Shown here: positions 4,570-28,347 of the stretch, in pieces
Position numbering within the stretch: position 1 is the stretch's first letter
How the letters are laid out: each line of letters starts with the position of its first letter
Assembly (NCBI GenBank): GCA_020054035.1
Contig: JAGVLY010000086.1
Span: forward strand, 1 to 46,731
Direction: 5' to 3'
Length of the DNA: 46,731 nt
Source: Bacteroidia bacterium
GTDB lineage: Bacteria; Bacteroidota; Bacteroidia; SXHM01
The notes under the pieces: model-generated
Told to the model about the DNA's origin: nothing
The model's input: the letters and a program-made list of their open reading frames with translations, nothing else
The model's database searches: none
Position numbers and translations under genes: made by a program

Positions 4570-4670
4570 CGTCATTGCGAACCCCGTTTCCTGCGGGGTG
4601 AAGCAATCTTAAAATAAGGTGCAGTAATTAAATTGTGAGATTGCTTCGGGTGAAAACCCTCGCAATGACG
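4570..4670. repeat. REP-like inverted repeat (CGTCATTGCGA type)
   Basis: Starts CGTCATTGCGAACC and continues GAAGCAATCT; the complementary AGATTGCTTCGGG then CGCAATGACG closes it. The two words CGTCATTGCG and GAAGCAATCT are those of a widespread bacterial intergenic repeat. About 100 bp. It overlaps the 3' end of the doubtful minus-strand ORF. Confidence 0.85.
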
Positions 4671-5080
4671 GTTGTATACAGAGTTCCTTGTTCAGCTATC
4701 GGGCTTGCCTGTGCAGCAGAATACATTCTCTTTATAGTTTGTTCCGTTTCCTTATCAGCTATGCTGCGGCCTGCTATCGCAAATAGTTTACCTGCTACCG
4801 TCAGGTTTATTGTTTCCTTATTTATAGTCCTGCCTTTTTCAGTTAAGCGTTTTCCTCTTTTCGCTGCCGGCATACCTCTTTCCGCTATTCTGTTACCCTG
4901 TTCCGCTAATGCGCTACCCTGTCCCGCAATGCTCCTACCCTCTCCCGCTAAGCTCTTACCTTTTCCGCAAAGCATTGCGACACGGGGTTTTGCTGCATTT
5001 GGTTGAGGTACTACGTTTGCGGACTTAGGTAACATGTTGTTGTGGTTTGCGGGGGCAAAATTGAACCCCGGGGCGGGCAT
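4628..5080 (-). CDS. Doubtful ORF with ten 7-residue repeats
   Basis: Not a family I recognise. From the ATG at 5078-5080 it reads MPAPGFNFAPANHNNMLPKS, then ten consecutive 7-codon units of the form G-x-G-(R/K/N)-x-(I/L)-A, for example GEGRSIA, GQGSALA, EQGNRIA. The Gly is coded by GGT, GGA and GGC in different units while the amino acid stays, and I/L alternate at one position, which hints that the minus frame has been translated. Against this: no clear ribosome site or promoter, the last residues run into a REP-like repeat, and the opposite strand is also open (4635-5006). A TTG two codons upstream (5086) is an alternative start. Treat it as a candidate only. Confidence 0.3.
   Translation of the reverse strand: MPAPGFNFAPANHNNMLPKSANVVPQPNAAKPRVAMLCGKGKSLAGEGRSIAGQGSALAEQGNRIAERGMPAAKRGKRLTEKGRTINKETINLTVAGKLFAIAGRSIADKETEQTIKRMYSAAQASPIAEQGTLYTTVIARVFTRSNLTI
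4757..4966. repeat. Tandem repeat, ten units of 21 bp
   Basis: Ten imperfect 21-bp units without length changes. On the minus strand a typical unit is GGACAGGGTAGCGCATTAGC plus one base. The four units at the high-coordinate end (about 4883-4966) are most alike and those at the low end have drifted. All keep the 7-codon register. Confidence 0.85.
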
Positions 5081-5138
5081 AGCCAAACCGGGTTTTGCGT
5101 ATTATTTAGGTTCAGGCGGGTATGTCGGTAACGGGTAT

Positions 5139-11715: not shown

Positions 11716-13185
11716 TTATGGTTTTATTCCGCGAGTTCCATCTAACCAACCCTGCCAGTATTCAAATGCTTTCATAGGAACATCTAACTTGTTATCGTCA
11801 ATCATCTTTTGCACCTCATTACGGTTTTGCCTTTTCAATGTTACCTTATCAAGATTAGCAAAATGCAACATGGTAGCTGCTGCAATGGCAGAATTTATCT
11901 TCAGATTTTGCAGATTTACTTTGTCGTAGGTATCACTTTCGCAATGGTAATCTGAACAATAATTTGCGCCTTCCTGCATACCCACAAGATTGGGAACACC
12001 CTGCATCATAAAATCATAATTATCTGTGCCGACAATCGGAACATCTGCATTTTCAAAAGGACCAAGTGATGCAACACTTACCAATGCTTTTTTTGTTTCT
12101 GCATCCAACTCGGGACGGTTTCCTGTAAAGAAACCCGTAATTTTTCCGCTACCGATATCAATAGAAGCAATTACAATGTGTTTATTTAATTCCTTTTCAT
12201 GTTGCTGTGTATAAGCATAGGAACCACAAATACACTGCTCTTCGCCATTCCATAGTGCAAAGCGAATAGTACGCTTAGGTTTTATTCCAAGTAGGGTCAT
12301 TTGGCGGGCAATATCTATTACTAAAGAAACATTACAGCCATTGTCATTTGCTCCGGTTCCCATTCCCCAGGAGTCAAGGTGGGCACCAATCAACACAACT
12401 TCATCAGGCTTTTCACTGCCTTTTATTTCACCGATAACATTGTAAGAAGTGTATGAACCTCCTGTGGTCAATTCAATATTCAGATTGATATTCAACTTCC
12501 CACCTTTTTCAAGAATTCTTATACAGCGCGAGGCATCATCACGTGCCATTACAACAAGCGGAAGTGTATTATTATATCCGCGCGAAGCAAGATGACGAAA
12601 CAATAATTTTTTAGGGCGCGATGACATATAAACAACGCCTTTAACCTGTGCAGCCATTGCCCGTCCTTCTATTTCATGTGCATCATTATATTCTTTAAAT
12701 AGCCCACCCAGTTCGGTAAGTTCATCTGTTGTAACCAACACAAATTTGTCATTTACGTTATCTCCTGCTTTTTTAAAATCATCTTCTGTGCCGTAACCAA
12801 CTGAAACTAATTCAGCTTCCAAACCACTTGCATCTGTACCAATGGAAAAAGCCCGCGAAACTACACGCGGAGAAAAATTTGAAGCACCGGTAATTTTAGC
12901 GGTGCAACTTTTCTCATCCCAAAGCGAAGGCATTTGAAAGGCTTCTTTCTTTACCTCTACTCCTGCTTCTTTAAATTTCTTAATGCCCCACTCTATTGCT
13001 TTGGTGTTAGCTTCCGTTCCGGTTACGCGACCTCCAATTTTATCACAGAGCTCATGTAAATCATCCTGAATTTGAGTATGCCCCAACATTGCAGCAACAA
13101 GCCTTTCTGTTTCGCTGTTCTGAGCGTTTAAAATAATTGCGGGGAATAAAATAAGCGATAAAAAAAATGAAACGTGCTTTAGCAT
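11716..13185 (-). CDS. M28-family zinc peptidase (carboxypeptidase Q-like)
   Basis: Secreted or periplasmic aminopeptidase-type enzyme with two catalytic zinc ions. After the signal peptide (1-21, ending ILNAQ) come a protease-associated-like insert (about 110-240) and the M28 core: GAHLDSW with its His and Asp, GTGANDNGCNVS, the NGEEQ pair of glutamates, and VGTDNYDFMMQGVPNL. A late SDYHCESDTYDKVN supplies another His ligand. The 489 aa length is typical of this family. Its start overlaps the stop of the upstream gene by one base (TAATG), indicating translational coupling. It probably trims peptides made by the metallopeptidase encoded next. Confidence 0.9.
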   Translation of the reverse strand: MLKHVSFFLSLILFPAIILNAQNSETERLVAAMLGHTQIQDDLHELCDKIGGRVTGTEANTKAIEWGIKKFKEAGVEVKKEAFQMPSLWDEKSCTAKITGASNFSPRVVSRAFSIGTDASGLEAELVSVGYGTEDDFKKAGDNVNDKFVLVTTDELTELGGLFKEYNDAHEIEGRAMAAQVKGVVYMSSRPKKLLFRHLASRGYNNTLPLVVMARDDASRCIRILEKGGKLNINLNIELTTGGSYTSYNVIGEIKGSEKPDEVVLIGAHLDSWGMGTGANDNGCNVSLVIDIARQMTLLGIKPKRTIRFALWNGEEQCICGSYAYTQQHEKELNKHIVIASIDIGSGKITGFFTGNRPELDAETKKALVSVASLGPFENADVPIVGTDNYDFMMQGVPNLVGMQEGANYCSDYHCESDTYDKVNLQNLKINSAIAAATMLHFANLDKVTLKRQNRNEVQKMIDDNKLDVPMKAFEYWQGWLDGTRGIKP

Positions 13186-14423
13186 TAGCGTTTTACAAGC
13201 ACTAAAATTTTATCATCCAACTGCACGATAGAATAATTGATTTTTTTTCTGCCGGCACTGGTTTCCATGTATACTTCAGCAGTTTTCTTACCATCATTCC
13301 ATTTACCTGAATGACAAATTTTATAGACCGATGAGTTTTTAGCTACAAGATCTTCGTCATATCCGTTATACATTTTAACAACGTAATTATAGCATAGCGA
13401 AAAATCGCCTTCTTCACCAAATTGTAGACTTGGAAAATCCTTGTATGCTGACAGGAATGTTGCTACGAATTTCAATGTATCAGTAGAACTAATGTTTGAT
13501 GAAGTTACATCACGATTCTCGAGATAATATTTTTTATTTACGTAACGCACATTCTTTTCTTCAGTTACTTTCTTTTGTTCAACCTCAACTACACCCGCAG
13601 CTTCTTTCTTCTCTGCTTTAACTGGCTGAACTAATTTCGCCTCAGCAACATTCTTTTTTTCAACTTCCACCACTGCAGCTTTAACTACTGCTTTTTCAGT
13701 TTTCACCGGCTGATTTACCTTTTCAGCTACTACATTCTTTTTTTCAGGCTCTTCTACAGTGTTCTGAGTTTTAGTTTCGGGTACTGTTTTAGCTACTGTT
13801 TCATTAGTAGTGCCTTTTATTTTTTTGCGAGCTTCCTCTTTCAAACGTTCAATCTCTGATTGGTCAGCTACATTCTGCTTAGGTGCTTCTTTTACAGGTT
13901 CTGTTTTAGTTACCACTGGTGGATTAACCTGAACCTGTTTTTGCTGAACTTCGGTTGCAATTACTTTTTCCTGCTTAGGTATTTCAGTCGGCTTTTGTTC
14001 TGTAACTAATTTAACCGGCTCTTTTTTCTCTGCAACAACCGGAGCCTTTTCGATCACCTTCTGTTCTGCTTTTTGCTCAACGGGCTTTACCACAACTACA
14101 TTTTCAGTTGCTTTTACAACCGTTTTTTCCTGAACAGATGTTGCCACCGCTTTCTCCTGCATCTTCTCACTTTCCGGTTGTTTATAATTGGTGGCAGTTG
14201 CTCCTGTGTTGCTAACCTTAGGCTGATCTTTCACCATTTCTTTGATAATGTCATCAACCTTATAAACAATGGTATCGCCCTTAGATGTTATGAAAATATT
14301 TTTCTTGCCCATGGCAATTTTTTCAAGATTTCCATTAACGAAAATTTCAAACTCCTGATTGGTTTGGGCGGAAACAGAATAACAGAATAACAGAACAAAT
14401 ATGGTAGTGGCGAATCTTAACAT
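13185..14423 (-). CDS. Secreted Lys/Glu/Val/Pro-rich protein (412 aa)
   Basis: Signal peptide MLRFATTIFVLLFCYSVSAQ. Residues about 80-295 are low-complexity and rich in K, E, V, P and Q with many VVAEKK/EKKNVAE-like words, no aromatic residues, and so probably extended and disordered. The last 120 residues look folded (KFVATFLSAYKDFPSLQFGE, CYNYVVKMYNGYDEDLVAKN), and a short N-terminal segment (20-75) is also ordered. I recognise no family. It could span the periplasm or bridge to the cell wall, as TonB linkers do, but no membrane anchor is present. It is the first gene of the peptidase operon. Confidence 0.7.
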   Translation of the reverse strand: MLRFATTIFVLLFCYSVSAQTNQEFEIFVNGNLEKIAMGKKNIFITSKGDTIVYKVDDIIKEMVKDQPKVSNTGATATNYKQPESEKMQEKAVATSVQEKTVVKATENVVVVKPVEQKAEQKVIEKAPVVAEKKEPVKLVTEQKPTEIPKQEKVIATEVQQKQVQVNPPVVTKTEPVKEAPKQNVADQSEIERLKEEARKKIKGTTNETVAKTVPETKTQNTVEEPEKKNVVAEKVNQPVKTEKAVVKAAVVEVEKKNVAEAKLVQPVKAEKKEAAGVVEVEQKKVTEEKNVRYVNKKYYLENRDVTSSNISSTDTLKFVATFLSAYKDFPSLQFGEEGDFSLCYNYVVKMYNGYDEDLVAKNSSVYKICHSGKWNDGKKTAEVYMETSAGRKKINYSIVQLDDKILVLVKR

Positions 14424-23638: not shown

Positions 23639-24202
23639 CTAAACACCCAGTGTTTTCAGCAGATAGCCGAGGAAGGAGATAAACATAAACACCATTCCAA
23701 GAATAATCAATCTGTTTACTGCCACTTCTTTATTACCTGTTTTGGCGGGTTGAAAATTCACCATCATAACAGAAAACAATTCAGATGCCCTTGAAGAAAA
23801 CGTTTTCTCTTCGCCTGTTAGCCTGTTCAGTTTATTGTTCAATAGGTAGGTCATGTAAAGACTTAATGCCAATAATATCGCAAGAAAAAAAGAGAACAAG
23901 GCAATTGATTTATTAACGTATTTTTCGTAACCTGAAGTGACGCTCAATCTGTTTATCGTCTCTTTCTGGCTTTTAAAAATAGCTTCATCCATGATTTTAA
24001 TAATGTGCAAATTTTCGATGTAGCTGCTGTTCTCCGTTGTGTTCAAACTGTCAATGTTTCTGCCATTTAATATGCGTTCGTTTTCTTTAACAAGCTGCTC
24101 TCTTTTATTTAGCATGTCGTAGGTTTCACCAATATCGGCTTGCACTGTGGCGAAACAGCTGAACAGAAAAAGAAATATAAAAAATCTCAACATCATTTTC
24201 AA
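23639..24202 (-). CDS. Membrane protein of unknown function (187 aa)
   Basis: No family recognised. It has a signal sequence (1-22, MKMMLRFFIFLFLFSCFATV), a helical and polar outer segment (23-95, with KREQLVKENERILNGR that may form a coiled coil), a membrane helix (about 97-119, IALFSFFLAILLALSLYMTY), a cytoplasmic loop (NNKLNRLTGEEKTFSSR), and a second membrane helix near the C-terminus (about 163-185). It follows the PhoD-like gene by 18 bp and is probably co-transcribed with it. A role cannot be inferred from that pairing. Confidence 0.65.
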   Translation of the reverse strand: MKMMLRFFIFLFLFSCFATVQADIGETYDMLNKREQLVKENERILNGRNIDSLNTTENSSYIENLHIIKIMDEAIFKSQKETINRLSVTSGYEKYVNKSIALFSFFLAILLALSLYMTYLLNNKLNRLTGEEKTFSSRASELFSVMMVNFQPAKTGNKEVAVNRLIILGMVFMFISFLGYLLKTLGV

Positions 24203-26209: not shown

Positions 26210-27706
26210 ATGAAGTTTTTTACCCGCTTAGCAGCTTTAGTGCTTTTGCTTTCAGGATCGTTTGTTGCCACCTCCCAGAACAATATGGGTGTAGGAACAC
26301 TGACACCTGATGTTACCGCAATACTTGACCTCACTTCCACCACCAAAGGTTTTCTGCCGCCACGCATGTCGCAGGTTGACAGAGATGCCATTGTAAACCC
26401 CGCTGACGGACTTATTGTTTACAACACCACCGACAGCGTTCTGGATTATTTTAACGGCACCTGCTGGCTGCCTGTTTATCTGGAAGATTGTAATGGTTGC
26501 TACTTCACCCTTTCTGCTTCTAGCAACGCTGGAACCATTGACCGCTTAATCAGCAACTCGGCACAAACGGCTTTAACCATTACCCAAACCAACGGCCTTC
26601 CTCAAAACATTGCACTTGCTCTTATCGGCACGCTACCTGCCGGAATTACCTATACCATAACACCTAACCCACTATCATCAAGCGGTGTGGTCTCCATTGT
26701 GTTTTATGCTTCGCCCTTTGCACCTGCGGGCACCTTCCCTATCGTCATATCGGCTATGTGCGGAACTACCACACAGAATTTTATTTATGCCCTTACCGTT
26801 GACCCTTGCTACTATGTAGCCGTATCCAATAGCGAAAGCGAATACGATGTTAGTGCCAACGTTTTTATTCAAAACCCAACAGCTCCGCAAAACCAGCCTA
26901 TCTGTGTGGCAGTGGAAGTAATGAACGGTGTTAGCATTACCAGCGATACCAATATTGTTCCTGCTTTTACAACGGGCAATCTTTTTCCGGGCTCACTGGT
27001 TTCGGTGGTTAACAACGGAACCATTATAGGCCGTGGCGGTAATGGTGGTGTGTCGTATGACCCTACTACCAACCCGCCAACAACAGGCGTGGGTGATAAC
27101 GGGGGCGATGCTATTTCACTGACCATTGATGCACAGATACAAAATAACGGCCTCATCTTTGGCGGTGGCGGTGGCGGAAGCGCTATGGCTTTTGACCTGA
27201 GTTATACCCTACCTCCTCCTGCTGATTTCATCACCTTCGGTCTCTTCATCGGTGCAGGCGGTGGCGGTGGCGCAGGTGTCAGCTATGGCGGAAATTCGCC
27301 TAACGGTGTTATCGGTCTTTCGGTCTACAATCCCGGGCAGGGCGGCACAGGCGGACAGCTTGGCCTTGGCGGTGCGGGCGGATACCTCAACTACCCTATT
27401 CCTATTAACGCAGGGCCGGCTACCATTACCCTTACCCCTATTGCCGATGCAGGTGATGGAGGCAACTACGGTTACCCGGGCGGACAAGGTAGTTTTGACC
27501 TCTACATCTCGGCCTACATTAACGTAAACATTCCCTTTGTAGGCAATGTGCAGATACCCGTAGTAACCAATCTAGCACTGCCTATTCCTATTCCTTATGC
27601 TATTCCGGCAGCAGCAGGATACGCTGTAAAACGCAACGGGTTTAACACCAGCATAGCTGATAATATGTACCAAACTTCGTTTATAAAAGGACAGGTGGGA
27701 AACTAA
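26210..27706 (+). CDS. Secreted glycine-rich, tail-fibre-like protein (498 aa)
   Basis: After a signal peptide (MKFFTRLAALVLLLSGSFVA, ending ATSQ) comes a module frequent in Bacteroidota surface and phage tail-like proteins: NMGVGTLTPDVTAILDLTST, KGFLPPRMSQVDRDAI, DGLIVYNTTD, YFNGTCW. A beta-rich domain with several Cys follows (about 90-230). From about residue 265 to 430 there are glycine-rich patches (GRGGNGG, GDNGGDA, NNGLIFGGGGGGS, GAGGGGGAG, GQGGTGG, GLGGAGG, GDGGNYG) split by beta-like segments, recalling the polyglycine bundles of gp38-type phage adhesins. No T9SS domain closes it. The start at the ATG at 26210 gives the signal peptide; upstream in-frame sequence does not look coding. 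It may bind surfaces or other cells. Confidence 0.7.
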   Translation: MKFFTRLAALVLLLSGSFVATSQNNMGVGTLTPDVTAILDLTSTTKGFLPPRMSQVDRDAIVNPADGLIVYNTTDSVLDYFNGTCWLPVYLEDCNGCYFTLSASSNAGTIDRLISNSAQTALTITQTNGLPQNIALALIGTLPAGITYTITPNPLSSSGVVSIVFYASPFAPAGTFPIVISAMCGTTTQNFIYALTVDPCYYVAVSNSESEYDVSANVFIQNPTAPQNQPICVAVEVMNGVSITSDTNIVPAFTTGNLFPGSLVSVVNNGTIIGRGGNGGVSYDPTTNPPTTGVGDNGGDAISLTIDAQIQNNGLIFGGGGGGSAMAFDLSYTLPPPADFITFGLFIGAGGGGGAGVSYGGNSPNGVIGLSVYNPGQGGTGGQLGLGGAGGYLNYPIPINAGPATITLTPIADAGDGGNYGYPGGQGSFDLYISAYINVNIPFVGNVQIPVVTNLALPIPIPYAIPAAAGYAVKRNGFNTSIADNMYQTSFIKGQVGN

Positions 27707-27750: not shown

Positions 27751-28347
27751 ATGAAAAAAGCAATTCTCTTTCTCACTTTCTCACTCTCTTACTTTCTCAC
27801 TTCTTTCGCGCAAAGCACCTTTGAAGGAAAAATTGTTCTTCGCGCAGAGAACGGTGTTACAAAAGAAACATCCGACATTACTTGGTACATGAAAAACGGG
27901 CAGCACCTGCTGAACTATGTAAACACGGGCAGCGGTGTAAACAGCACCTACAGCCTGCTGAGCAAAGAAGGTAAACTGGAAATGATAAATGAGCGCGGAA
28001 GAGTAAACATTCCCGGCAACTCACTAAAAAAACAGGACTTTGATTTTACCACCTACAAGTTGCTGAACAAAGAAGGCAACAAAATGGTGAACGAATTTAT
28101 GTGTGTGAAATATACCATTGAAAGCGGCAATACTGTTGCCGAAGTATGGATGGCCGATGACGCGGATATTCACATCAAAGATTTCCCGGAAGTGATGCAA
28201 TCATCCTTGCTTACTGTTTGTGATAACCTGCACCAGGGCGGTATTCCAGTTCAACTTTTTGTTAAAGAAAAAACAGGCAAGCTGATGATGAGCCAAACTA
28301 TTACGTACATCATGCCCTGCAAGGTTGATGACGGGAAATTTAAATAA
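27751..28347 (+). CDS. DUF4412-like secreted protein (198 aa)
   Basis: Signal peptide MKKAILFLTFSLSYFLTSFA, then a beta-rich domain: FEGKIVLRAENGVTKETSDI, TWYMKNGQHLLNYVNTGSG, VNEFMCVKYTIESGNTVAEV and VCDNLHQGGIPVQLFVK, a pattern that fits the DUF4412 group of periplasmic proteins, whose role is unknown. Two Cys in the mature part may form a disulfide. The DNA of its signal peptide is an inverted near-copy of that of the PhoD-like gene at 24221. The Smr-domain gene converges with it, leaving 7 bp between the stops. The short gap before it holds GGCAGTTGGCAGT-like repeats (27709-27730). Confidence 0.7.
   Translation: MKKAILFLTFSLSYFLTSFAQSTFEGKIVLRAENGVTKETSDITWYMKNGQHLLNYVNTGSGVNSTYSLLSKEGKLEMINERGRVNIPGNSLKKQDFDFTTYKLLNKEGNKMVNEFMCVKYTIESGNTVAEVWMADDADIHIKDFPEVMQSSLLTVCDNLHQGGIPVQLFVKEKTGKLMMSQTITYIMPCKVDDGKFK
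27761..27800. repeat. 40-bp inverted repeat, right copy
   Basis: Matches the reverse complement of 25965-26004 at 39 of 40 bases and encodes part of the DUF4412-like signal peptide. The pair brackets the glycine-rich gene. Confidence 0.9.

Follow-up and report, generated by a model that had tools for sequence, protein, structure and literature searches.

A predicted gp38-type polyglycine-sandwich domain in a conserved, probably exported protein of Bacteroidota

A 498-residue protein encoded in a Bacteroidia genome carries a domain that belongs, by homology, to the lineage of gp38, the adhesin of T-even phages. On balance, we favour the view that it is a non-viral bacterial member of the gp38 polyglycine-sandwich group: an exported, probably disulphide-stabilised surface adhesin directed at an invariant target. 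Phage tips are known to contain polyglycine sandwiches (PMC6851490, PMC12892980), which have also been modelled for the mycobacterial PE_PGRS proteins (PMC7830552), and in phage gp38 receptor specificity is carried by five distal loops (PMC6851490, PMC12892980). The gene lies in a stretch of 46,731 nucleotides (the window), a contig of a 1.87-Mb genome that is 68% complete, and its features are as follows.

26210..27706, + strand: gene for the exported gp38-domain protein, 498 aa (open reading frame, Pfam, relatives, fold)
26210..26278, + strand: signal peptide, residues 1-23 (hydrophobic N terminus; cleavage after SQ is a guess)
26279..26488, + strand: N-terminal module NMGVGT...KGFLPPRM, residues 24-93 (common to other proteins of the genome and to phage proteins)
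26498..26806, + strand: Ig-like domain, residues 97-199 (structural matches to Ig-like domains)
26807..27703, + strand: gp38-like domain, beta base and polyglycine sandwich, residues 200-498 (Pfam, profile-profile alignment, superposition, shuffles)
27029..27112, + strand: glycine motif 1, loop A (27050-27097) and glycine motif 2 (alignment A1)
27161..27178, + strand: glycine motif 3, GGGGGG (motif reading)
27179..27250, + strand: loop B, 24 aa, a hydrophobic predicted beta hairpin at the position of gp38 receptor loop B (insertion in the profile alignment; model strands)
27251..27295, + strand: glycine motifs 4 and 5 (motif reading)
27296..27331, + strand: loop C (motif-by-motif alignment)
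27332..27382, + strand: glycine motifs 6 and 7 (motif reading)
27383..27445, + strand: loop D, 21 aa, a predicted beta hairpin (insertion in the profile alignment; model strands)
27446..27490, + strand: glycine motifs 8 and 9 (motif reading)
27491..27607, + strand: loop E, 39 aa, a hydrophobic, proline-rich predicted beta hairpin (model strands; motif order)
27608..27703, + strand: glycine motif 10 with the conserved C terminus (in relatives, KRNG..PD..Y.T..KG.VG)
27751..28347, + strand: partner gene, secreted DUF4412-like protein with a predicted LolA/RseB-like half-barrel (Pfam, synteny, model)

Results

The gene and its N-terminal half

The open reading frame of 498 codons begins with an ATG at 26210 on the + strand. 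We favour this start over 26057, where a longer in-frame reading would begin, because the signal peptide of the relatives sits at the 26210 start. Judged by a simple hydrophobicity rule, 22 of 23 family members start with a signal-like segment, in agreement with the signal peptide proposed when the sequence alone was read. Six cysteines are invariant in all 23 full-length proteins, a set that includes locus L015 and excludes L028, the same locus. No T9SS sorting tail was found in the gp38-domain protein, and a promoter and terminator scan gave 4 promoter-like sites against 4.0 expected and no terminator-like sites. Many Ig-like domains align with residues 74-177 of the mature-protein model, at Z values of roughly 9 to 12; the N-terminal module was modelled with low confidence.

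The sequence-only reading had noticed that the NMGVGTLTP/KGFLPPRM module is shared with other proteins, and this sharing is real. A Leptolyngbya phage protein aligns with residues 25-92 (47.8%, 2e-10, tblastn against phages), as do, in the same search, two uncultured phage records (735 kb), and three more proteins encoded by this genome match the N-terminal region. On contigs C106, C34 and C62 of genome G000 (loci L002, L003 and L004), the module stands ahead of different bodies, among which are collagen repeats and PKD/Ig repeats by Pfam; one of the three bodies resembles a phage tail-collar region on reading only, without confirmation by Pfam. In the hypothetical protein of Leptolyngbya phage Lbo-JY46 (L053:5062-6204) the module is C-terminal, not N-terminal, and by reading it is doubled in L011, L012, L013, L018 and L024.

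Likeness to gp38 in sequence and profile

Residues 215-328 match the Pfam family GP38 (PF05268) at 3.2e-10, with 40.6 bits against a curated cut-off of 25, and PHROGs families 11439 (7.9e-10) and 2056 (6.8e-8), both annotated as tail fibre, are also matched. When a profile of 17 cellular domains was aligned with one of seven T-even gp38 proteins, the probability was 96.9% (E 1.6e-10), with the alignment starting at gp38 residue 71. The cellular profile (alignment A1) holds 17 of the domain places found among 149 relatives; L006 and L015 were excluded for being near-duplicates and L020 for being partial, as were matches in genomes G121 and G119 and a weak second match in G121. The search of adhesin profiles that the earlier reading had proposed thus came out in favour of gp38.

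Glycine alone does not explain this match, since shuffles that hold the glycines fixed lose it. The window domain scores 33.5 bits against the profile of the seven T-even proteins, compared with at most 2.2 bits for 60 such shuffles; for 15 of the 17 cellular proteins none of the 60 shuffles came up to the real score, for one protein 1 shuffle did, and for one 3 did. At the profile-profile level, 40 column shuffles with the glycine columns fixed gave a probability of at most 35.1%. Individual members are more distant: Pfam GP38 matches 5 of the 17 at E<=0.01, and scores of the other members against the phage gp38 profile run down to -5.4.

Searches of the PDB by sequence gave a best E of 0.69 with phmmer, none to E 1 with profile A1, and a best E of 0.73 with the profile of the N-terminal module. 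In tblastn against phages, the whole protein had matches confined to the N-terminal module, and the base, the piece comprising loop E and the C terminus, and a phage-tail-like protein from a different Bacteroidota genome had none; a plasmid search likewise returned nothing. These phage and plasmid negatives are weak, because BLAST masks low-complexity stretches.

Predicted fold

AlphaFold2 was run on the mature protein, template-free and with seven aligned sequences. The best model had a mean pLDDT of 75.4, and the other four of the five had 52.6-57.3. The gp38 of phage S16 (6f45_D) ranks first against the best model, with a VIA-align Z of 18.5, an rmsd of 3.0 and 31% identity, with 199 of 248 residues aligned, covering residues 199-496 and beginning at gp38 residue 45; the gp38 of phage PP01 (9v85_C) ranks second (Z 17.9). 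The next row after the two gp38 structures has a Z of 11.9 and concerns the Ig-like part only. The 6F45 structure is later than the AlphaFold2 training set. Among the best 50 Foldseek rows against the PDB there were Ig-like and sugar-enzyme domains and no gp38, which surfaced when the Foldseek candidates were re-aligned with VIA-align; the best matches in BFVD include gp38-domain phage proteins. The predicted model of the C-terminal half thus superposes on both solved gp38 polyglycine sandwiches. The sequence-only reading had proposed a gp38-type polyglycine II architecture and had named two results that would speak against it, a disordered linker and a want of similarity to adhesins; neither was found, the first as far as a predicted model can tell.

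Long, hydrophobic and conserved loops

The alternation of glycine patches and beta segments noticed earlier follows the gp38 motif order, with strand-forming segments between the tracts. Three of the loops between the motifs are much enlarged. Loops B, D and E exceed their phage gp38 counterparts in length by a factor of 3-6 (medians of 24, 21 and 39 residues in cellular proteins, against 8, 7 and 6 in phages), and 61-68% of their residues are AVILMFWP. The insertions at B and D are seen in the profile alignment, and the position of loop E comes from motif order.

The sequence-only reading had expected loops that vary among relatives, and here it was mistaken: the loops are conserved and under purifying selection. 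Mean pairwise identity in loops B-E is 0.33-0.46 among the 17 cellular proteins, against 0.11-0.17 among the seven phage gp38 proteins, whereas in the base it is 0.44-0.49 in cells and 0.49-0.64 in phages; the loop figures are to be read as a contrast and not as a rate, since the two sets were sampled differently. Within the genus (three sequences), dN/dS is 0.039-0.044 for the gp38-like domain and 0 to 0.17 for single loops, values that are approximate because synonymous divergence is high.

Distribution

Of 149 relatives, its own genome counted among them, 22 have the domain; they belong to 12 of 99 genera. In a wider sample of the phylum the cellular form is patchy, for among 395 genomes the full form occurs only in its own genome, with partial matches in three. 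A scan of genome contigs for the domain found at least 7 loci. PF05268 has matches in 3 of 296 genomes of the phylum, namely its own and two with long proteins. Loci L025 and L026, from one other family of the same phylum, encode long GP38-domain proteins that resemble phage tail proteins and are possibly prophages.

In one myxobacterial class, 7 of 147 genomes, an Archangium MAG among them, encode related proteins. The Archangium protein combines EGF-like domains (Pfam EGF) with the same base, to which the base of the window family aligns at 40% over 121 residues (BLASTP, 1e-15); Pfam GP38 was not called in this protein or its genome. By reading, several of the myxobacterial proteins have a lipoprotein-like signal start and an end of the type KRNG..PDG.YDT...RGPV, and the myxobacterial relatives are without long hydrophobic loops.

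In viral contigs, none of 600 pattern matches from a whole-domain scan was confirmed, and a scan with the base found at least 35 loci. One IMG/VR protein (L079:4767-6335) reads as a tandem pair of gp38-like domains. A tree was built from 51 domains, leaving out 12 duplicates and 7 others of 35 viral loci, as well as the incomplete L052. The 20 Bacteroidota sequences form one clade (support 99), which joins four myxobacterial sequences with support 100; the attachment of the Archangium sequence to this combined group has a support of only 66, and another myxobacterial sequence is placed among the viral ones. The tree supports common descent of the Bacteroidota proteins with the four myxobacterial proteins.

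Neighbourhood and partner gene

Among the neighbours in the window are a PhoD-like phosphatase and a cupredoxin, each with a T9SS tail. None of ten neighbouring proteins compared with PHROGs was identified as a virion or replication protein, in line with the earlier remark that no phage genes are near; a weak 'spanin' match (6e-4) at 23639-24202 is probably due to chance. Farther off in the window, 4628-5086 and 13185-14423 are low-complexity, repeat-rich open reading frames (GRSIAGQG..., VVEVEKKNV...).

The partner gene, which the sequence-only reading had passed over (27751-28347 in the window), follows directly on the same strand, 1-97 nt downstream, in 19 of 20 loci, and L024 is the single locus without it adjacent. 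The same gene order recurs in five named contigs with otherwise different flanking genes (among them L028, which is L015 and was already counted). The partner protein is secreted-looking and mostly about 190-216 aa long, with two shorter members: L006 runs off its locus, and L017:1115-1474 (- strand) reads 120 aa, a frame that may have been shifted by the assembly or in life.

DUF4412 (PF14371) matches 15 of 19 partner proteins at E<=0.01, and the window partner falls just under the cut-off (19.8 bits against 21.6). The partner alignment (A4) excludes L006, L015 and L017 as cut, duplicate and short, respectively. The model of the partner (pLDDT 87.0) superposes on 2yzy (Z 12.1), on RseB (Z 11.7) and also on LolA-type proteins, and we therefore predict a LolA/RseB-like half-barrel closed by helices. 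Proteins of the LolA/RseB class are lipoprotein carriers or envelope-stress sensors. The partner shares the predicted fold of LolA, LolB and RseB and differs from them in having 12% (2yzy) and 8% (RseB) identity, no lipobox by reading, and DUF4412 as its nearest Pfam family. Within the scope of our literature search no paper mentions DUF4412, to which the gene pairing gives a consistent neighbour.

Discussion

Compared with gp38 of the T-even phages (S16, 6F45; PP01, 9V85), the cellular domain has the same beta base, the same ten glycine motifs in order, a predicted polyglycine II sandwich, and loops A-E at one end (PMC6851490, PMC12892980). In contrast, the cellular protein adds a signal peptide and six invariant cysteines, and the N-terminal helical bundle with which gp38 docks onto gp37 is absent, an Ig-like domain preceding the cellular domain instead. 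Its loops B, D and E are enlarged, hydrophobic and conserved, whereas the phage loops are hypervariable, and it is encoded by a cell together with a LolA-like partner. In phage records the gp38 gene sits between the fibre gene 37 and a holin gene; the window has neither.

We infer surface display and adhesion for the gp38-domain protein, and suggest that it could work as follows. The signal peptide would carry it through the inner membrane, and the N-terminal module and Ig-like domain would act as anchor and spacer, replacing the fibre-docking part of gp38. About ten glycine motifs would pack as a polyglycine II bundle on which loops A-E are shown side by side, and in Bacteroidota loops B, D and E would have turned into long hydrophobic hairpins under purifying selection. 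As purifying selection holds the loops, the target of the tip would be slow to vary; candidates are some conserved part of the envelope of neighbouring or prey cells, a surface made of polymer or lipid, or a component of the cell itself. For the LolA/RseB-like partner we infer a role alongside this tip: it would probably shield or load the oily loops in the periplasm, or share a hydrophobic ligand with them.

A broader proposal, which we put forward only tentatively and regard as rather doubtful, is that a phage-type receptor-binding head has been domesticated in two phyla and retained as a permanent organ of the cell surface; in Bacteroidota it would form one half of a two-gene device, the other half being a LolA-like carrier that protects its tip of hydrophobic hairpins or loads it. 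If true, this would be a new system for adhesion or lipid contact whose specificity does not vary.

The most serious competitor, in our judgement unlikely, is that the hydrophobic tip contacts membrane or lipid instead of a receptor, and that the protein is a component of envelope maintenance or secretion, either seated in the outer membrane by this domain or holding lipid received from the LolA-like partner. The composition of loops B, D and E, their conservation and the predicted LolA/RseB-like fold of the partner all fit this idea, as does the apparent co-occurrence of the two traits: the myxobacterial relatives, which lack the long hydrophobic loops, have no LolA-like neighbour that we could see by reading downstream in six loci. 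However, L024 keeps the loops with no partner adjacent, and phage gp38 too binds protein by hydrophobic complementarity (PMC12892980).

That the gene is a freshly captured phage gene or a prophage remnant, kept by chance or as a phage decoy, seems very improbable to us. The outside relatives are indeed phage and IMG/VR proteins, and the N-terminal module is found in phages. Against this stand the one architecture kept across many families, the signal peptides, a dN/dS of about 0.04, the supported Bacteroidota clade, and a neighbourhood with no virion or replication genes nearby and with flanking genes that differ among the six loci read, which together largely refute a prophage remnant.

It is hardly credible that the glycine-rich half is an ordinary low-complexity linker whose GP38 match reflects composition. 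Its motifs are glycine-rich and Pfam recognises few members, but the glycine-fixed shuffles lose the match, the glycine-poor base aligns with the myxobacterial protein, and gp38 is matched by the predicted fold; unless the model is wrong, superposition and shuffles rule out a disordered glycine-rich linker. Slightest of all is the chance of a structural or ice-binding protein akin to snow flea antifreeze protein (sfAFP), where polyglycine II bundles have that role (PMC7830552), because here base and motif order follow gp38 and the idea fits poorly with an exported, disulphide-bearing protein that has a fixed partner gene.

An adhesin of the gp38 lineage, the reading we prefer, has its nearest cellular parallels in the PE_PGRS proteins and the fibres of Bdellovibrio. 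PE_PGRS proteins are surface proteins for which homology modelling led to the proposal of polyglycine II sandwiches with receptor-contacting loops; they differ in being modelled on sfAFP and in having GGA-GGX repeats and a PE export domain (PMC7830552). No PE_PGRS-type family was among the Pfam matches of the gp38-domain protein, and the comparison is one of descriptions. The MAT fibres of Bdellovibrio resemble our protein in having a signal peptide, an N-terminal beta-rich domain, a body like a phage tail fibre, and varied adhesin tips at the cell surface, and differ in being trimeric, with S74 domains in 13 of 21; their homologous N-terminal domain measures ~130 aa. This comparison, too, is by description, and the word glycine is absent from the main text of that report (PMC10769870). 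A literature search covering titles and the starts of abstracts, with most subscription journals outside its scope, found no cellular gp38 protein of this kind described.

Here, then, the gp38 architecture is that of a conserved, chromosomal, exported protein with a fixed partner, found in many Bacteroidota families and with cousins in a myxobacterial class. Phages and cells provide a natural contrast, one scaffold whose loops change fast in phages and are frozen in cells, and this contrast makes the drivers of loop variation and binding range testable.
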